From Dehalococcoidia bacterium (GTDB taxonomy: Bacteria; Chloroflexota; Dehalococcoidia; DSTF01; JACRBR01), in the NCBI GenBank assembly GCA_021731085.1, contig JAKFYB010000002.1, positions 62,001-126,000 on the forward strand: a stretch of DNA of 64,000 nt, read 5' to 3'. Numbering within the stretch: position 1 is the stretch's first letter; every line of letters begins with the position of its first letter. Of this stretch, positions 1,140 to 62,048 are shown piece after piece. The notes under the pieces were generated by a model. The model was not told the origin of the DNA. It did not search any database and was given only the letters and a program-made list of their open reading frames with translations. The position numbers and the translations under genes were made by a program.

Positions 1140-2558
1140 ATGACGACAGAAACCGCCACCACGCGCTCCCTCGTTGATGCCGCCGACAACGTGAGCGGCC
1201 GCGCCGAAGACGTCGGGGGCGCTCCATTCGTCCCGCAGCCACAGACCGTCGACGAAACCGGCCTCGATTTCTCGATGATCCTCGATCTCGTTGTGAAGTC
1301 GATCTACTTCGCCGGACGGCCGGCGGCCCGCCAGATCTCTGCGCAAATAGCACTGCCATTTCCGGTTGTCGATGAGATTCTGACGTTCATGAAGCGCGAA
1401 CAAATGGCCGAAGTCGTCGGCAGCTCGGGCATGGGCGAGCAGTTGTATCAGTACTCTCTGTCTGCCAAGGGCATGGAAAAAGCCGAGGAAGCCCTCTCCC
1501 GTAATCACTACGTCGGCCCGGCCCCGGTGCCATTCGAGCTTTACCTCGAAGTCCTGAAGGCACAGTCGATCCGGAACATTCGCCTCACGCCCGAAAGCGT
1601 TGGCCGTGCCGTGTCCCACCTCGTCCTCGACGACTCGGTGACGGAGGCACTTGGCCCCGCCGTTAACTCTGGCCGCTCGATGCTCATTTACGGTGGCTCG
1701 GGTAACGGCAAGAGCACCATCACGGGCGCCGTCGGACGAATGCTCCCGGGTGAAGTCCTGATCCCGTACGCCATCGACATCAACGGCATCATCGTCAAAC
1801 TGTACGACCCACGCATCCACCAGGAGATCGCGCCGGATAAGGCGGACCGGCGCAACATGGAGCCGAATGGCGCGAGTGCTGAACGCCGCCGCGACCGCCG
1901 CTGGGTCGTCGCAAGGCGCCCAATGATTACGGCCGGCGGTGAGCTCACCTTGGCTGAACTCGAACTGAAGTACTCGCAGCAGTCCAAGTTCTACATCGCG
2001 CCGCTGCAATGGAAGGCGAACAGTGGAATCATGATCGTCGACGACTTCGGGCGTCAGATGATTCAGCCGAAGGAGCTCCTCAACCGCTGGATCGTGCCGA
2101 TGGAAGAGCGCGTCGACCACCTTGCGCTGCACACTGGCGATATCGTCGAGGTGCCATTCGACTGCCTCTTGATCTTCTCGACGAACCTCCATCCCTCACA
2201 ACTGGGTGATGAGGCATTCTTCCGGCGCATCCGTCACAAGCTCGAGATCCCCGACCCGACAAAGGATCAGTTCATGGAGATCCTCGCTCGGGTATGCCAA
2301 CAGCGAGAGATGCCCGTGGATCCGGAGGCAGCGCACTACCTCGTCGACAAGTACTACACGCGCCTGGATCGCGGCTTCAAGGGCTGTCACCCGCGTGACC
2401 TCGTCGAGATCATCAGCGACATCTGCATGTTCCACGGCGACCGGCCGGTCTTTGACCGCCGCTACCTCGATCAGGCGGCGCACTCATACTTCGTCGCGCT
2501 ACAGGATCCGAAATCACGCCAGCTCGGCCAATTCGGGGGCCTCGGCCAGGCCGCCTAG
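1140..2558 (+). CDS. AAA ATPase with N-terminal winged-helix-like region (paralog 1)
   Basis: A 472-residue cytoplasmic P-loop ATPase. Residues about 45-118 resemble a winged helix (helices plus the QYSLSAKGMEKA wing). The AAA core has Walker A GGSGNGKS at 185-192, Walker B IMIVDDFG at 297-304, a sensor-1 STN near 349 and arginine-finger candidates RRIR at 362-365. The C-terminal lid contains the GCHPRDLVE motif. The start has GAGGGG about 10 bases upstream. It shares architecture and many motifs with the gene at 19471, so the two are paralogs. Its partner is not evident; it is divergent from a secreted vWA gene, and ATPases of this general type are often seen near pilus or secretion loci. 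Function not assigned. Confidence 0.85.
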   Translation: MTTETATTRSLVDAADNVSGRAEDVGGAPFVPQPQTVDETGLDFSMILDLVVKSIYFAGRPAARQISAQIALPFPVVDEILTFMKREQMAEVVGSSGMGEQLYQYSLSAKGMEKAEEALSRNHYVGPAPVPFELYLEVLKAQSIRNIRLTPESVGRAVSHLVLDDSVTEALGPAVNSGRSMLIYGGSGNGKSTITGAVGRMLPGEVLIPYAIDINGIIVKLYDPRIHQEIAPDKADRRNMEPNGASAERRRDRRWVVARRPMITAGGELTLAELELKYSQQSKFYIAPLQWKANSGIMIVDDFGRQMIQPKELLNRWIVPMEERVDHLALHTGDIVEVPFDCLLIFSTNLHPSQLGDEAFFRRIRHKLEIPDPTKDQFMEILARVCQQREMPVDPEAAHYLVDKYYTRLDRGFKGCHPRDLVEIISDICMFHGDRPVFDRRYLDQAAHSYFVALQDPKSRQLGQFGGLGQAA

Positions 2559-2630: not shown

Positions 2631-4061
2631 CTAGCTTCGAGATGCCTGCCAGGTCAACACTCGCTGTACAGCAAGCGTCGCGTCGCGCACGCTGTTAAAC
2701 ACAGGCAGTCCTGCATCGGCGACGTTCTGCTGGAATGCGAGCGTCCCCGCCATGCCCATCTCGGTCGTTGGGATGCGGGCGACGCACACAATCGGCTTGC
2801 CGGACTCCTTGCCGACCTCTCCAAGCTTCTGTGCAGCCTCCGACGCCACTTCGACGATGCTCGGGCCTTCAGCGCGCATGGCGCCCCAGGAATAGCTGGT
2901 GTGGTACAGGATGTAGTCGATGTTGGGAGACTCCGCGACGATGCGGATCGTGTCGAGCATCGGCTTCAGGCCATCAGGGCCCCAACCTACGCTCGTGTCC
3001 ACCGGATTGCGGACGCTTGTACCCGCGGTCGGCGTGAAGTCGTGCAGCTTTTGCTGGATGTCGGCTGGAAGTGTCGGCATTTCTAGGCCGGATGCACCGA
3101 TCTCATCGGAGGCGAGCACGCTATACCCGCCACCGCCGCCGACGATACCGGCGCGTGGACCCGCGAGCTTCGGCAGATACCGGAACGCGACGACCTGGTC
3201 GACCAGTTCTTCCATGCGATCCACGCGCACGGCGCCGGCCTGACGCACCGCCGCATCGAACACCTGTAGCGAACCCGCAAGGCTGCCTGTGTGCGACGCC
3301 GTGGCGCGCGAACCTGCTTCTGTGCGCCCTCCCTTGAGAATCACGACCGGCTTCGCAGCAGCGGCCTTACGTAGCGCACGCATGAAGTGCGCACCATCTG
3401 TGATGCCTTCGATGTAGCAGGCAATGACTGAAGTCTCAGGATCTTCGGCACAGTACTCCAGGAGTTCGGACTCACGAACATCAGTCCCGTTGCCGTAGCT
3501 GACAACCTTGCTATAGCGAAGGCCGCGCACAGCCCCCGTCCGGCAGAATTCACCCGCATTCGCACCGGACTGTGAAAGCATCGCCACTGGTCCGGGATCC
3601 GTGGGCAGAAACGGCATGAAGGACAGGCCAGACGCCGGCGAGTAGAGCCCCATGCAGTTCGGCCCAATCACCCGGATGCCGGCATCGGCTGCCCGCTGAA
3701 GAATGCGCGCCTCCAGCGCCGTCGCATCCTCGTCGCCTGTTTCGCTAAAACCTGCGGTGAAGAAGTGGACGACCTTCACGGCCTTCGCCACGCACTCGTC
3801 CATCAGGCCCTCCACGAATCGCAAAGGGACGGACGAGATCACGTGATCGACGTGGCCCGGGATCGCTGTCAGGTTTGGATAGCACTTGAGGCCGGCGATC
3901 TCCTCAGCCTTGGGATTTACCGGATAGAGGTCGCCGTTGAAGCCCATCTCCTTCGTCGCGGCGACGAACGAACCTGGGCCGTCCTGCGTCGATGCCCCGA
4001 CGACGGCGATAGAGCGCGGATGAAACATGAAATCGAGCGCGGAAAAGCTGCCCTCGGGCAT
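2631..4061 (-). CDS. ADP-forming acyl-CoA synthetase, alpha-type subunit (CoA-binding)
   Basis: 476 residues, related to the alpha subunit of ADP-forming acetyl-CoA synthetase and succinyl-CoA ligase, which interconverts acyl-CoA + ADP + Pi with acid + CoA + ATP. The N-terminal Rossmann CoA-binding domain has SIAVVGAS at about 17-24. GPNCMG near 133 and the phosphohistidine loop ASHTGSLAG, with His at 257, are intact. The beta (ATP-grasp) subunit is not fused and not adjacent, so the partner must be elsewhere. The ATG at 4061 is chosen because AAGGAGA sits 6 bases upstream; a longer frame starts at 4100 without such a site. It converges with the AAA ATPase across a hairpin terminator. Confidence 0.85.
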   Translation of the reverse strand: MPEGSFSALDFMFHPRSIAVVGASTQDGPGSFVAATKEMGFNGDLYPVNPKAEEIAGLKCYPNLTAIPGHVDHVISSVPLRFVEGLMDECVAKAVKVVHFFTAGFSETGDEDATALEARILQRAADAGIRVIGPNCMGLYSPASGLSFMPFLPTDPGPVAMLSQSGANAGEFCRTGAVRGLRYSKVVSYGNGTDVRESELLEYCAEDPETSVIACYIEGITDGAHFMRALRKAAAAKPVVILKGGRTEAGSRATASHTGSLAGSLQVFDAAVRQAGAVRVDRMEELVDQVVAFRYLPKLAGPRAGIVGGGGGYSVLASDEIGASGLEMPTLPADIQQKLHDFTPTAGTSVRNPVDTSVGWGPDGLKPMLDTIRIVAESPNIDYILYHTSYSWGAMRAEGPSIVEVASEAAQKLGEVGKESGKPIVCVARIPTTEMGMAGTLAFQQNVADAGLPVFNSVRDATLAVQRVLTWQASRS

Positions 4062-4119
4062 TGGAGTCTCCTTACGAGTGCGTGCCTGCATTCTGGTCAC
4101 GCCTCACCATTCGCAGAAA

Positions 4120-4178: not shown

Positions 4179-4383
4179 TCGACGCTCGCACAGGTGCAGA
4201 CACCCCAGAACGCCTGGGTGCCGCATAGCCCGATCCCGTTTTTTGGCTTCAGATCTCGCCAACCAAGGGCCTCAATCCCTAACAGGGAGTAGGTGAAGCA
4301 CTTAAGGGTTCTCCCACCCCTGCCGAGCATGACTGTGACGGTTGGTGTGAGCGCCGGGGTTGGCGCGCGAGCAAGGCGGCACA

Positions 4384-5208
4384 ATGCGCATCGTCCCAGA
4401 ACCAGAGGCCAACCCTGTCGCAGCCTTCGTCAGCCGCCACGCACGAGTAGTGGCGTGGGCGGGCATCGGGGCGGCATGCGTTGGCTCCCTGCTTATAGCA
4501 TCCGCAGCCACGAACGCGGGCGCCGCTCCGCCTGCCGCCGCCGTTACGGCAACGCCATCGCCATCCCCTACGGCGACTCGAACAGCGACGCCATCAGCCA
4601 CCGCGACCGCTACTTATTCGCCAACGGCAACGCCCACGATGACGCCTACCGCCACTCAGCGACCCGCGACGAGTACGCCTCGTCCACCGTCCACAACCGT
4701 CCCCGTTGCTGCGACCAGCACATCGGTTCCACCGCCTCCTCCGCCAATTACGACTCCGACGTCGATTCCAGTCCCACCACCTCCGGCCTTCGCGGCGACG
4801 GGCATGGATGGGTATTCACGCGCGCTCTTCGACGCAACGAACGCACGCCGCGCGGGCGTCGGCGTAGCGCCCCTCCGCGAGAACGGCTACCTGAACGCCA
4901 TCGCGAAGCTTCGCTCGGACGAGATGGCACAGCACAACTACTTCGCGCACGTGAGCCCGATTACAGGTGAGAATGTGTTCGCGCTGATGGATCGCTATGG
5001 CGTTCCATATGGCTGGGCAGGAGAAAATCTCGCCAAGAACAACTACCCGGAGAGCGAGTGTGTGCAGGTGGCGGATCAGGCGTTATGGGACAGTCCGTCG
5101 CACCACGAGAACATCGTGAATCCGAACTACACCGACGTGGGTATCGCGCTCACCGTCGATTCGAGTGGCATGAAGTATTTCACGATCGTCTTTACGGGTC
5201 CGCCGTAG
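4384..5208 (+). CDS. Secreted CAP/SCP-domain protein (YkwD-like)
   Basis: 274 residues. A transmembrane or signal segment (about 17-45) is followed by a roughly 90-residue Thr/Pro/Ala-rich linker, then a CAP domain from about 140 to the end. Conserved features are the N-terminal NARRAGVG helix, the histidine of YFAHVSP, WAGENLA and SPSHHENIVNPNY. The domain is of the bacterial YkwD type found in cell-surface proteins; its biochemical role is not settled. The ATG at 4384 is preferred over an in-frame TTG at 4360 because AAGGCGG lies 5 bases upstream. It converges with nuoF, with only 9 bases between the stops. Confidence 0.85.
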   Translation: MRIVPEPEANPVAAFVSRHARVVAWAGIGAACVGSLLIASAATNAGAAPPAAAVTATPSPSPTATRTATPSATATATYSPTATPTMTPTATQRPATSTPRPPSTTVPVAATSTSVPPPPPPITTPTSIPVPPPPAFAATGMDGYSRALFDATNARRAGVGVAPLRENGYLNAIAKLRSDEMAQHNYFAHVSPITGENVFALMDRYGVPYGWAGENLAKNNYPESECVQVADQALWDSPSHHENIVNPNYTDVGIALTVDSSGMKYFTIVFTGPP

Positions 5209-5217
5209 GCGAATTGC

Positions 5218-7101
5218 TCACCCGGCCCGGGCGACATCGGCCGGCGCAATCTCACGCAGTGGAATCAGGCCGTCAAACCGGTCGACAACCGCGACGTCGT
5301 CAGGAGCAACTTCGACGCACGCCCCGCCGCGCGAACAGCGTCCGTCCATATTCGGCTGCACGCCCTTCGCCGCGATGTGGTCCGGACAGATCGCCGCAGC
5401 CTCAGCCAGCGCTGGTGAGTTTCCGACCACGACGTACTTGACCAATCCCTCGCACACTTGCGCCGGACAACGGTGTTCGTTGAGATGGATGTCGTATTCC
5501 TCGCGAAAGTGCTGCAGCGTATTGCGCATGATCGTCGGGGACAGCGTCCCGTGAAAACAGTTCGAATACTGGAACGATGCATCCAGTGACTTGAGATGCG
5601 CCACGTCCTCACCTCGGCCTTCGCCGCGCGACGTGCGTTCGAAGATCTCCACCATACGCTGATTGCCAATACGACATGTCGTGCACCTGCCGCACGATTC
5701 GTCCTCAAGGAAATGCGCCATCATTACGTTGAGGTCGACGACGCAACGGCGATCGTCGAGGAAGATCAGCCCACCTCCGCCCATGCCTGTGCCAAGTTCG
5801 CGAAATGGTTCCGGCTCAAGCCGTAGTGGCCCGGCAACTGCAGCCGGCAAGAGACCAGAAAGCGGCCCGCCTTGCTGGAGCGCCTTGAACGCCAGCCCAT
5901 CGTTGATCCCACCGATGCCGGCGAGCAGTTCATCGACGGTCATGCCGAACGGCACCTCGACGCACCCTGTACGCCCGACATCTCCCGAGACCGTGAACAT
6001 TTTCGTCCCGCGGTTGGCCTCGGTCCCGACCGTGCTGTACGTGTCGGCGCCGACCCGCATCAGTGCCGTCACGCAAGCGTACGTCTCGACGTTGTTGACG
6101 TTTGTTGGCTTGCCGAGGACGCCCGACTGTGCTGGGAATGGCGGCTTGATGCGCGGCATCCCGCGCTCATCGTTTATCGACGAGATGAGCCCCGTCTCGT
6201 CGCCGCACACGTACGCGCCGGCCCCACGCACGACCTCGCACGTGAAGTTCACACCCGTTCCGAGAGCATCGCCCCCTAGGATGCCGCGCTCGAGGCAATC
6301 GGAGATCGCCTTGTTCATCCGCTCGATCGCGAGCGGATACTCGTCGCGCAGGTAAATCCAGCCGTGGGTCGCACCAGTTGCGTAGGCACCGATTAGCAGC
6401 CCCTCGATAAGCGAATGCGGGTCGCTCTCCATGATCACGCGGTTGACCCACGCTCCAGGGTCGCCTTCGTCCGCGTTGCAGACGAGATACTTCGGTTCTG
6501 CCGTCGCATCCTTCAAAAACGACCACTTCGTTCCCGTCGAGAAGAACGACCCTGAGTGCCCGCGAAGCGTCGAGCCCTTGACGAGCTCGATCAGGTCGTC
6601 GCGTGACATCTGGGTTGCCGCGACGAACTGTGCGTACCCGCCCCGACCGATGTATTGCTCCAGGTTCTCCGGATCGATCACACCGCAGTTGTGCATAAGC
6701 CAACGCACCTGCATCTTCGCCCAGTCAAGGTCCCAGAGCTTGGGGATGCCGTCCGCCGCGCCTCCAATGACACCGATTGCAAGGTTCGCCACGACTCCAG
6801 CCGCGGCCGCTACAGCGAAATCCGCGACCTTATCCTGAGTGACGCCCCCGTAGAGGATGTGCTGCCCGTCTGGCTTCCGGACCTGCACGATCGGCTCGGC
6901 CCACGACATACCGTCGTCGCCCGTCTGCATCACATCGAACCCGCCGGAGGCCGCGAGAGCTTCCAAAGCCGCGTAGGTCTCCCGCGCGCCGGCTGCAATC
7001 GACGACGTGTTGATGGACACGACGAACAGCGGACGCGCGGGCTTCTCGACGGCCGTCCAGGCCGCGTCACCAACCACTTTGAGTTCGTCGTAGGTGGGCA
7101 A
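5218..7101 (-). CDS. nuoF: NuoF-like NADH dehydrogenase subunit with degenerate accessory ferredoxin domains
   Basis: 627 residues, of the long HndC/HydB-like NuoF type. The N-terminal thioredoxin-like domain (about 22-98) normally holds a [2Fe-2S] cluster in CxxxxC and CxxxC; here the four positions read S, S, D, S. The glycine-rich FMN/NADH loop is unusual (RGHSGSFFSTGTKW, about 180-193), but NADEGDPG at 209-216 and GAGAYVCGDETG near 293-304 are conserved. The N3 [4Fe-4S] motif ESCGRCTTC (468-476), with a later Cys at 515, is intact. The C-terminal ferredoxin region keeps only scattered cysteines (572, 589, 595). It follows nuoE by 18 bases. No nuoG, hydrogenase or formate dehydrogenase gene is near. 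Likely a soluble NAD(P)H-linked flavoprotein; partner unknown. Confidence 0.85.
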   Translation of the reverse strand: MPTYDELKVVGDAAWTAVEKPARPLFVVSINTSSIAAGARETYAALEALAASGGFDVMQTGDDGMSWAEPIVQVRKPDGQHILYGGVTQDKVADFAVAAAAGVVANLAIGVIGGAADGIPKLWDLDWAKMQVRWLMHNCGVIDPENLEQYIGRGGYAQFVAATQMSRDDLIELVKGSTLRGHSGSFFSTGTKWSFLKDATAEPKYLVCNADEGDPGAWVNRVIMESDPHSLIEGLLIGAYATGATHGWIYLRDEYPLAIERMNKAISDCLERGILGGDALGTGVNFTCEVVRGAGAYVCGDETGLISSINDERGMPRIKPPFPAQSGVLGKPTNVNNVETYACVTALMRVGADTYSTVGTEANRGTKMFTVSGDVGRTGCVEVPFGMTVDELLAGIGGINDGLAFKALQQGGPLSGLLPAAVAGPLRLEPEPFRELGTGMGGGGLIFLDDRRCVVDLNVMMAHFLEDESCGRCTTCRIGNQRMVEIFERTSRGEGRGEDVAHLKSLDASFQYSNCFHGTLSPTIMRNTLQHFREEYDIHLNEHRCPAQVCEGLVKYVVVGNSPALAEAAAICPDHIAAKGVQPNMDGRCSRGGACVEVAPDDVAVVDRFDGLIPLREIAPADVARAG

Positions 7102-7119
7102 TCCGACTACCTGTTCCTG

Positions 7120-7587
7120 CTACTTCTTCAGTTCCCGCACGAGCTTCACGGTGCTCGCAGCCGTCAGTGAACCGACGACTCTTCCGTTTACCCAAACCTG
7201 CGGTGCGTACTCACATGTCCCGTTGCATTGAGCGAAGTGAAGGCCCACCTTGTTGTCGGCGGTATTCTCACCCATACCAACACCCAGCTCGGTCTCGAGC
7301 GCCTTGCGTATGCCGTGGCCGTTCTCGAGTCTGCACGCGAGCCCGCTGCACCAGCCGATCAGCGTCTCAGGTGGCGGCGTCAGCCTGAATTCTGAGTAGA
7401 AGGTGGCCGCGCCGTAGACCTTCGCCTCGCTGAGACGAAGTTGGCGCGCCACTACCTTCAGTGCCATCTTTGGCACATAGCCGTAGTGATGTTGGACCGC
7501 ATGCAACGCGCCCATCAGGTCACCGTCCGCGGGCTTGAACTCGCGTATCAGGTGCTGGATCTCTAGCGTCGCTTCGTTGTCGGGCAT
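7120..7587 (-). CDS. nuoE: NuoE-like [2Fe-2S] subunit
   Basis: 155 residues, thioredoxin-fold subunit that carries the N1a-type [2Fe-2S] cluster and pairs with NuoF. All four ligands are present: Cys80 and Cys85 (CSGLAC), Cys121 and Cys125 (CNGTC). The N-terminal helical part (HHYGYVPKMAL) is typical. GGAG lies 5 bases before the ATG, and a -10 candidate CATAAT is at 7612-7617. It is the first gene of a two-gene operon with the divergent nuoF copy. Confidence 0.9.
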   Translation of the reverse strand: MPDNEATLEIQHLIREFKPADGDLMGALHAVQHHYGYVPKMALKVVARQLRLSEAKVYGAATFYSEFRLTPPPETLIGWCSGLACRLENGHGIRKALETELGVGMGENTADNKVGLHFAQCNGTCEYAPQVWVNGRVVGSLTAASTVKLVRELKK

Positions 7588-7679: not shown

Positions 7680-8906
7680 CTAGCTAGCGGCAACGACTGC
7701 CGACGCATCCAACGCTTCCACAATACCTTCGCGCAGAAGGTCGAGGCCCCATCGCTTTTCCGCGGACACAAGCACCGCATCCGGAATGTTCTCGGTCAGC
7801 GATCGCTGGAACGAGGATAGCTCGCTCAGTGACGAAGGCAGCCCTCCATCCGCGTCTGCGAGCTGATCGACCTTGTTGAACACGGTGATCCGCGGCTTGT
7901 CAGCGATCTTCAGCTCCGTCAGTGTCTCCTCGACCGTCTGAGACTGGTGGGCCGCATCCGGATGGGTGATATCGACCACGTGCAACAGCAGCGCCGCGTC
8001 CGTCAGCTCCTCCAGCGTCGCGCGAAAAGACGCGACAAGCTGCGTCGGCAACTTTTGGATGAACCCGACAGTGTCCGTCAGCAAAGCCGGGTGCGTGTCG
8101 TCGAGATATACGCGGCGCGTCAGGGGATCCAGCGTCGCGAAGAGCTGATTCTGGACGAAGACATCGTCGTCACGCGTCAGGGCGCGCATCAGCGTGCTCT
8201 TGCCGGCGTTTGTGTACCCGACGAGCGCGACGACCGGCACGCCCTCGCGCTCACGACGCCGACGGTACAGGGACCGCTGCTGCCGGACTTCCTCGATCTG
8301 CTTCTTGAGCTTGGTGATCTTATTGCGCGCGAGCCGCCGGTCGGTCTCTATCTGCGTCTCACCCGGCCCACGCACGCCGATTGCCCCTGGCGCTCCACTG
8401 GCGCCGCTAAGGCGTTCCAGGTGCGACCACTGGCCCTTCAGCCGTGGCAGGAGGTACTCGGTCTGTGCGAGATCGACCTGGAGCCGTCCCTCCCGCGTCC
8501 GAGCGCGCATCGCGAAGATATCCAGGATGAGCGCGGTGCGATCCAGCACCTTCACGTCGAGCGCCTTCTCGAGCTTCTGCTGCTGCGATGGCGAGAGTTC
8601 ATCATCGAAGATAACCATCGTATATTCGCCGTCGCCGTCCGTGGACTGTCCGCGCCGCTTCACAATTTCGTCGAGTTTGCCCTTGCCGATGTAGGTCGCT
8701 GGGTTTGGGGAGTCCATCCGTTGCAACGCGGAGCCCACGACATCTGCGCCGGCCGTCTCGGCCAGCAGGGCGAGTTCCTCGAGTGACGCCTCGCCACGCC
8801 ATCGGTCGCGTTCACTATTCCGCTGCACGCCAACCAGGAACGCCCGCTCGCGTTCCTCAGCGGTGGTCTTCAAAGCCGTTCGGGCGGTTGTGTGGTCCTT
8901 GGGCAT
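7680..8906 (-). CDS. hflX: Ribosome-associated GTPase HflX
   Basis: 408 residues. HflX binds 50S subunits, splits stalled ribosomes and hydrolyses GTP. The N-terminal HflX domain (about 20-200) includes YIGKGKLDEI and RGPGETQIETDRR. A helical linker follows, then the G domain with P-loop GYTNAGKST at 230-238, switch DTVGF, and NKVD. The length is normal. No Shine-Dalgarno is seen before the ATG; a -10-like TACTCT ends 8 bases upstream, fitting a leaderless transcript. It lies 32 bases downstream of rarA and could also be read through from it. Confidence 0.95.
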   Translation of the reverse strand: MPKDHTTARTALKTTAEERERAFLVGVQRNSERDRWRGEASLEELALLAETAGADVVGSALQRMDSPNPATYIGKGKLDEIVKRRGQSTDGDGEYTMVIFDDELSPSQQQKLEKALDVKVLDRTALILDIFAMRARTREGRLQVDLAQTEYLLPRLKGQWSHLERLSGASGAPGAIGVRGPGETQIETDRRLARNKITKLKKQIEEVRQQRSLYRRRREREGVPVVALVGYTNAGKSTLMRALTRDDDVFVQNQLFATLDPLTRRVYLDDTHPALLTDTVGFIQKLPTQLVASFRATLEELTDAALLLHVVDITHPDAAHQSQTVEETLTELKIADKPRITVFNKVDQLADADGGLPSSLSELSSFQRSLTENIPDAVLVSAEKRWGLDLLREGIVEALDASAVVAAS

Positions 8907-61265: not shown

Positions 61266-62048
61266 TCAGCCGGCGATGCCTACGCCGCCGTCGATCGTGA
61301 TGCACTCGCCCGTGACCATGTCGGCGCCTTCGATAAGGGACAGCACGAGTTGCGAGACGGTCTCGGGCGTGCAGACGCCCTTGAGCGGCGCCTGTCGCGT
61401 CTGGTGCGCCTTGGCCGCTTCGTAGATCTGGTCGCCGAGCCCGTTCTTCAGCCAGCGCGTTTCGATGAAGCCGGGCGCGACCGCGTTGACGCGGATTTCG
61501 GGGCCGAGGACCTTCGCGAGCGAGATCGTCATATTAATGAGCGCGGCCTTCGAGGCGGCGTAGGCGATTGACGAGCCGGTGGCGCGCGTGCCTGCGACCG
61601 ATGCGATGTTGACGATGGCCGCAGCGGGCTGCCCTTCGACGACGGACGCGCGCATTGCGGTCGCGGCGGCGCGCGAACAGAAGAACGCGCCTTTCACGTT
61701 GACGGCGAAGATGTCATCCCAGAACTCACTCTTCATGCCGTCGAGGTCGGCGAACGGGACGAAGTGCGTCATGGCCGCGTTGTTCACGAGAATGTGCAGG
61801 CCACCGAACTCGGCGACCGTCTGCTTGACCAACGACTGCACCTGGGCGTCATCGGACACGTCGGCCTTGACGAGCAGCGCGTTACCACCGGCCGCCTTGA
61901 CGAGCGCGACGGCCTCGCGTGCATCGTCCTCCGACCGCGAGTAGTTGATGACAACGTTCGCGCCTCGGTTCGCAAGATCGACGGCCACCTGTCGTCCAAC
62001 CCCTACGGCTGATCCCGTGACGATCGCCGTCTTTCCACGTACATCCAT
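61266..62048 (-). CDS. Short-chain dehydrogenase/reductase (FabG-like)
   Basis: 260 residues. NAD(P)-dependent oxidoreductase with Rossmann motif TGSAVGVG (residues about 11-18), NNAAMTHF, the catalytic Ser in NIASVAG and YAASKA, and APGFIETRW. Thr-Gly-Ser at the nucleotide loop and RSEDD after strand 2 suggest NADP preference, which is inference. The substrate is unknown. GGAGG lies 4 bases before the ATG at 62048. Confidence 0.85.
   Translation of the reverse strand: MDVRGKTAIVTGSAVGVGRQVAVDLANRGANVVINYSRSEDDAREAVALVKAAGGNALLVKADVSDDAQVQSLVKQTVAEFGGLHILVNNAAMTHFVPFADLDGMKSEFWDDIFAVNVKGAFFCSRAAATAMRASVVEGQPAAAIVNIASVAGTRATGSSIAYAASKAALINMTISLAKVLGPEIRVNAVAPGFIETRWLKNGLGDQIYEAAKAHQTRQAPLKGVCTPETVSQLVLSLIEGADMVTGECITIDGGVGIAG

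Follow-up and report, generated by a model that had tools for sequence, protein, structure and literature searches.

In complex I, NuoB, NuoI and NuoG form the relay that takes electrons from NuoF to quinone, and the NfnABC and Stn transhydrogenases bifurcate electrons with ferredoxin and NADP; HydB proteins that do not bifurcate are reportedly known in hydrogenases. Nuo-Bfu combines a complex I core with a BfuABC/HydABC-like module that replaces NuoEFG, and is proposed there as an intermediate in the gain of the NADH-oxidising module of complex I (PMC9304861). The closest precedent for the system examined here comes from the deep-sea Chloroflexi genome An-B22, where an 11-subunit Nuo is accompanied by nuoEFG in an operon of their own (PMC5736913). 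Here we analyse the adjacent nuoE and nuoF genes in a 64-kb stretch (the window; positions 62,001 to 126,000 of contig JAKFYB010000002.1) from a Dehalococcoidia bacterium whose genome contains a heme-copper oxidase gene. The pair very probably encodes the NADH-oxidising module of a second, dispersed 14-subunit complex I, with an origin on the HydB/BfuB/FdhB side and with its ferredoxin parts stripped. We found no description of such a dispersed, partly stripped module of formate dehydrogenase and HydB ancestry in the literature on complex I of Dehalococcoidia and Chloroflexi, on HydB-like NuoF or on Nuo-Bfu.

A preliminary description of the window had called the pair isolated, with no catalytic partner nearby. 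That holds within the window, where the queries used detected no other nuo homologue; elsewhere in the genome, likely partners are encoded on contigs C11 (NuoG and NuoI), C25 (NuoB) and C2 (the core). Genome-wide, we found one Complex1_51K protein (the NuoF of the window, on contig C6), one PF00384 protein, two NuoD clusters and two NuoB proteins. Contig C32 (L133) carries a complete 11-subunit core (A, B, C, D and H–N) without E, F and G. The cluster on C2 comprises nuoA, C, D, H, J, K, L, M and N and lacks nuoB and nuoI; the second nuoB stands alone on C25, and on C11 the second nuoI overlaps a NuoG/FdhA-like gene (its product, NuoG2). Beyond the full C32 core, the genome therefore holds the C2 core without B and I plus one further set of B, I, G, E and F, and the 11 core subunits (A, B, C, D and H–N) are available to NuoEF.

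The 14 genes of the proposed enzyme would thus lie in four places: nuoACDHJKLMN (C2), nuoB (C25), nuoI–nuoG (C11) and nuoEF (C6). NADH would reduce the flavin mononucleotide (FMN) of NuoF, from which electrons would pass to the iron–sulfur cluster N3, NuoG2, NuoI, NuoB and finally quinone, with protons pumped by the membrane core encoded on C2. Conserved residues support the steps inside NuoF; we infer the transfer to NuoG2 and beyond, as well as the physical complex.

We classified 99 genomes, some of them incomplete, from three homology searches (NuoF, NuoG and NuoD). Type-2 NuoF (NuoF2) was assigned by tree, NuoG2 by an identity of at least 42%, fragments included, and type-2 NuoD (NuoD2) by an identity of at least 64%, a cut set after the data had been seen. 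Gene content offers the stronger test, ahead of co-occurrence statistics. None of 19 type-2 cores has nuoB, and none of the 18 in which the interval from H to J is covered has nuoI; by comparison, 12 of 12 control cores, taken from genomes that lack NuoF2, carry both genes in the usual A-B-C-D-H-I-J order, some of them running off contig ends. In 20 of 21 loci nuoI adjoins nuoG2, the exception (L184, G036) having nuoI beside nuoB, and nuoB lies near nuoI or nuoG2 in L176, L178, L184 and L243, so that the genes of the B–I–G relay are linked. The nuoEF pair of G075 is about 10.6 kb from the core gene nuoA, on the same strand. A survey of relatives had been proposed in the preliminary description, and the co-occurrence it yields is close: NuoF2 is present in 32 of the 99 genomes, NuoD2 in 34, covering all 32 (phi 0.96), and NuoG2 in 35, covering 31 of the 32 (phi 0.89), with NuoG2 in G001, G003, G007, G012, G017 and G092 scored from partial matches.

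Besides the late choice of the NuoD cut, several points weigh against a dispersed complex I. The genomes are related and not independent, so that Fisher values of about 1e-20 or smaller exaggerate the strength of the association. G047 has NuoF2 but no NuoG2, the reverse is true of G015, G016 and G017, and G034 combines NuoG2 with a NuoF of a sister type. NuoEF might instead partner the complete core on C32. Four of the five ligands of the [2Fe-2S] cluster B2 persist in the NuoF of the window, which leaves room for a ferredoxin branch. Finally, in most relatives nuoEF adjoins a PRK07233 FAD oxidase gene and glycan genes, not nuo genes.

The gene order in most relatives is DUF2298, Agl23-like, flippase-like and PRK07233, followed by nuoEF; PRK07233 is in the neighbourhood of 31 of the 51 loci compared, usually just upstream. 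This synteny suggested PRK07233 as a partner, with NuoEF acting as a diaphorase for the FAD amine-oxidase-like protein in a lipid or glycan pathway. Co-occurrence weakens the idea, as PRK07233 (at least 41% identity) is found in 23 of 32 NuoF2 genomes versus 32 of 67 others, a phi of only 0.23 beside the values for NuoD2 and NuoG2, and in the genome of the window its block sits on contig C12, apart from nuoEF; we consider the diaphorase very unlikely. In eight other genomes (G031, G040, G044, G053, G054, G066, G073 and G098) PRK07233 lies upstream, no more than about 6 kb away and on the same strand, of neighbouring nuoF and fdhA/nuoG genes, and we read this neighbourhood as the old home of an E–F–G enzyme, not as an electron acceptor. 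The C12 block of the window genome (G000; L131:4922-13543) has DUF2298 (Chlor_Arch_YYY), Agl23-like (PMT and NHL repeats) and PRK07233 genes consecutively after an SMC-like gene.

The nuoE and nuoF open reading frames (ORFs) are intact and 18 bp apart. Pfam recognizes 2Fe-2S_thioredx in NuoE and Complex1_51K, SLBB and NADH_4Fe-4S in NuoF, and calls no domain over the N-terminal ~170 and last ~85 residues of NuoF. In a sequence search of solved structures, NfnB (9n5u_B) aligns to NuoF residues 27–600, and NfnB, Stn and HydB subunits align across nearly its full length; NuoF is nearer to NfnB (475.8 bits) than to Nqo1 (301.3 bits). The AlphaFold model of NuoF (mean predicted local distance difference test score 87.8; 93–98 in the thioredoxin-like block and 59–91 in the ferredoxin tail, residues 541–600) superposes on 9n5u_B with template modelling scores of 0.86/0.91 over 594 columns, so both cysteine-poor extra domains exist as folds. 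The picture of a NuoE/NuoF pair with two ‘ghost’ ferredoxin domains, given in the preliminary description, is thereby borne out. Neither this NuoF nor the C11 NuoG exceeds the cut-off of any NCBIfam equivalog; against TIGR01959, the NuoF equivalog, NuoF reaches 401.8 bits, below the cut-off of 558.65. What we propose, despite that score, is that the protein works like the NuoF of complex I, as a divergent variant.

In a NuoF tree of 110 rows, built after removal of duplicates, the window falls inside a 61-row clade (SH-aLRT 99) with four sister rows of the same class; the clade is all Chloroflexota and apparently all Dehalococcoidia, although the record of one row within it, L061, is titled Thermoflexus. 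Site counts refer to 60 of these rows, L002, the window’s own sequence again, being left out; one of them, L027 (the NuoF of G075), has an in-frame TGA and lacks the last part of the ferredoxin domain. Among 301 evenly sampled genomes of the phylum, considering matches with E values of 1e-140 or better, those of at least 48% identity are all in Dehalococcoidia, namely six NuoF2 genomes and the G034 sister.

The core cofactor sites are kept, as the preliminary description had said of NuoE and N3. The N3 cysteines (470, 473, 476 and 515) are intact, with cysteine at all four sites in 60/60 clade rows, and NuoE has its four ligand cysteines, as do 70 of the 71 relatives examined (the remaining one is truncated). 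The alteration of the flavin loop (RGHSGSFFSTG, residues 180–190) is real, if less radical than had been suggested: position 69 varies freely, serine occupies position 66 in 13/60 rows and position 68 in 13/60, and the 13 scored FMN/NADH positions, whose roles we presume to be those in Thermus Nqo1, are identical in all 60. E184 is replaced by Asp in 14/60 rows, the window among them.

Losses are concentrated in the extra domains. At the four ligand positions of the thioredoxin-like domain NuoF reads S, S, D and S, exactly as first described, with no cysteine in the domain; NfnB-type relatives carry only three there (NSC...GC..MC). Because the first cysteine anywhere in NuoF is residue 139, these cysteines were lost and not displaced, which disposes of the alignment caveat raised at the outset. 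No clade row has more than three cysteines at these positions, and the window’s family (f1) has none wherever the domain is present. The C-terminal ferredoxin domain, described earlier as having lost most of its cysteines, keeps three of eight (572, 589 and 595): one [4Fe-4S] cluster lacks all four ligands, as it does throughout the 60 rows, and the other keeps three of four, the fourth position being Gly592. This second cluster has four cysteines in 57/60 rows; it falls short in the window and in L003, from the same genus, each with one cysteine lost, and in the truncated L027.

Most ligands of cluster B2 persist in the window. The B2 ligand positions in A. mobile HydB include Cys438, Cys476, His525, Cys531 and Cys536 (PMC9304861). 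The window NuoF has Cys453, His539, Cys545 and Cys550, with Ser491 at the fifth site. Across the clade the ligands are largely kept or lost as a unit, the equivalents of Cys438, His525, Cys531 and Cys536 occurring together in 40/60 rows and the three cysteines in 41/60. Among Tepidiformaceae-like loci (L045–L049, L054, L056 and L066), rows such as L046 are without the B2 set (S, L, D, L) and have an intact last [4Fe-4S] cluster; such rows amount to a natural experiment on the B2 site. Set against the Bfu/HydABC complement of B1–B5 plus C1, the window system keeps B1 and C1, has four of five B2 ligands, has lost B5 and, of B3 and B4, has lost one and retains the other incompletely.

One rival is a confurcating, Nuo-Bfu-like complex I that still takes ferredoxin together with NADH, through B2 and a modified C-terminal cluster. 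Nuo-Bfu complex I has been proposed in the literature, the four main B2 ligands stand together in two-thirds of the rows, and the second C-terminal cluster is complete nearly throughout. We nevertheless consider ferredoxin use unlikely. The bifurcation-linked methionine (M204 in A. mobile) is valine in the window, in 58/60 clade rows and in 4/4 sister rows, versus Met in 40/45 outgroup rows, and in the genus of the window the last cluster is short of one cysteine as well. M204 is a criterion for the bifurcating Bfu family, and non-bifurcating BfuB homologues are described as lacking B2–B5 (PMC9304861). The cluster losses and the valine together suggest that ferredoxin use has been lost.

A degenerating copy of some true NuoEF, offered initially as a reading that a second nuo set would favour, might account for lost cysteines and an altered flavin loop. 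No second NuoF was found in the genome, and the flavin, NADH and N3 residues are invariant. Compared with L003, the nearest relative and from the same genus, the ratio of non-synonymous to synonymous substitution rates (dN/dS) is 0.10 for nuoF (0.13 in its thioredoxin-like part, 0.08 in its ferredoxin tail) and 0.12 for nuoE. Comparisons with L004, L005 and L008, of the same family, give 0.23–0.25 for nuoF as a whole and looser values, 0.29–0.43, in the extra domains; all these ratios are rough, as dS is near saturation. Cysteine losses common across the clade and a dN/dS of about 0.1 argue against decay, and the intact ORF and low dN/dS rule out a frameshift or pseudogene. We regard the duplicate as contradicted; only a complete nuoEFG missed by the metagenome-assembled genome could revive it. 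The extra domains are still constrained, and the earlier suggestion of a simplified electron module gains from losses that are clade-wide, ordered and under purifying selection.

The C11 NuoG has its best solved relatives among formate dehydrogenases (FdsA: 9wxb_B, 312 bits; 6tg9_A, 308 bits) and scores 92.9 bits with Nqo3. All 21 NuoG2 members have lost the Cys/Sec-His of the molybdenum (Mo) site and kept the Fe–S cysteines, and the protein encoded with the complex I gene nuoI is probably an Fe–S relay without Mo catalysis. NuoG2 (L134:14-2608) and many FdhA proteins of the class carry a CLRDDVVTHRCVTCSKNYRC-type insert after the H-x3-C-x2-C-x5-C motif; it brings four extra cysteines, perhaps for an extra cluster.

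In the NuoG tree, the NuoG2 members group together (100/100); L243 and L250 branch next, followed by the loci L239, L241 and L070, in which the gene is adjacent to E and F (97/94), and then, with weaker support (86/94), by the selenocysteine formate dehydrogenase of L242/L072. The NuoF tree has the same sisters (L242; L239/L241/L070), and E, F and FdhA/G are contiguous there. Next to the sister NuoF of G034 (L242/L072) is an FdhA whose active site includes an in-frame TGA (ARLUHSP). This neighbour, and the FdsA match of the genome’s NuoG, would suit NuoEF as the beta/gamma part of an NAD-linked formate dehydrogenase; we give this next to no credence for the window, as the sole PF00384 protein found in the genome lacks Cys/Sec-His and its gene adjoins nuoI. 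At L242 (G034:C50:26500-36000), nuoD lies about 3 kb past this interval, on the same contig as the NuoE, NuoF and FdhA genes, and this locus may possibly encode a formate-driven complex I.

For the dispersed complex I of the window, NuoF would derive from the HydB/BfuB/FdhB side and NuoG from the alpha subunit of a formate dehydrogenase. Within the lineage, NuoF would have been stripped of cluster B5 and of one C-terminal [4Fe-4S] cluster out of two, and NuoG of its Mo-site Cys/Sec-His. Living members form a graded series, from E–F–FdhA with a selenocysteine formate dehydrogenase (G034) through E–F–G units that have lost the Mo site to a module linked to complex I and mostly without ferredoxin wiring. 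We see about an even chance that this lineage independently made a new NADH head for complex I out of an electron-bifurcating/formate-dehydrogenase enzyme, silencing its Mo site, dismantling the ferredoxin branch cluster by cluster and scattering the 14 genes with B, I and G together, while intermediates, including the sister resembling a selenocysteine formate dehydrogenase, survived. If so, a route by which NuoEFG may have arisen could be read stepwise in living species; the clade bears on the question of how complex I gained that module. Annotation by neighbourhood would call the complex I of this genome devoid of NADH input and nuoEF an orphan, and both calls are probably wrong.

The proposed system shares with Nuo-Bfu a complex I core and a HydB/BfuB-type NuoF with both extra domains. 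Nuo-Bfu is encoded in one 14-gene cluster, keeps B1–B5 and is reported for Deferribacteres/Proteobacteria and Planctomycetes/Nitrospirae (PMC9304861), whereas the genes here are scattered, the host belongs to Dehalococcoidia, and B5 and one C-terminal cluster are lost. As in canonical NuoEFG (Thermus Nqo1-3), there is an FMN/NADH pocket, N3, the NuoE cluster and a NuoG without a Mo active site, in a presumably non-bifurcating arrangement; the extra domains at the two ends, kept as folds in the window NuoF, are absent from canonical NuoF. In FdsABG (6tg9), FdsB shares the thioredoxin-like domain (NuoF residues 33–536 aligned), but its match ends at residue 536, without the C-terminal ferredoxin domain, and NuoG2 differs in its lost Mo site. 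NfnABC/Stn transhydrogenases (9n5u, 9bp5 and 8oh5) give the best sequence and fold matches of NuoF, at nearly full length; unlike them, the window NuoF is without most ferredoxin-side cluster ligands.

Table 1. Features of the nuoEF locus, in window coordinates
Feature	Coordinates	Strand	Remarks
nuoE	7120..7587	-	155 aa; thioredoxin-like [2Fe-2S] subunit, ligand cysteines CSGLAC...CNGTC
nuoF (type 2)	5218..7101	-	627 aa, TTG start; FMN/NADH subunit, HydB/NfnB-like architecture
NuoF residues 25-110, N-terminal thioredoxin-like (‘B5’ domain of BfuB/HydB), cysteine-free	6772..7029	-	
NuoF residues 180-190, altered FMN loop RGHSGSFFSTG	6532..6564	-	
NuoF residues 470-476, first three N3 (B1) cysteines CGRCTTC	5674..5694	-	Fourth is Cys515, 5557-5559
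NuoF residues 539-550 (His539, Cys545, Cys550), B2 [2Fe-2S] ligands	5452..5487	-	Plus Cys453, 5743-5745
NuoF residues 544-600, C-terminal ferredoxin domain	5302..5472	-	Cys572, Cys589, Cys595 kept
hflX	7680..8906	-	Same-strand gene upstream of nuoE

The gene upstream of nuoE, which we take from its sequence to be hflX, holds the same position in the same-genus locus L032 and is not thought to be a partner of nuoEF. A CoA-binding/succinyl-CoA-ligase-like protein (2631-4100, minus strand), convergent with a CAP-domain secreted protein (4360-5208), has a homologue that follows nuoF in L032 too. Elsewhere in the window, a 472-amino-acid ATPase-like ORF (1140-2558, plus strand) has no Pfam match at an E value of 1e-5, yet contains a Walker-type motif, GGSGNGKST.

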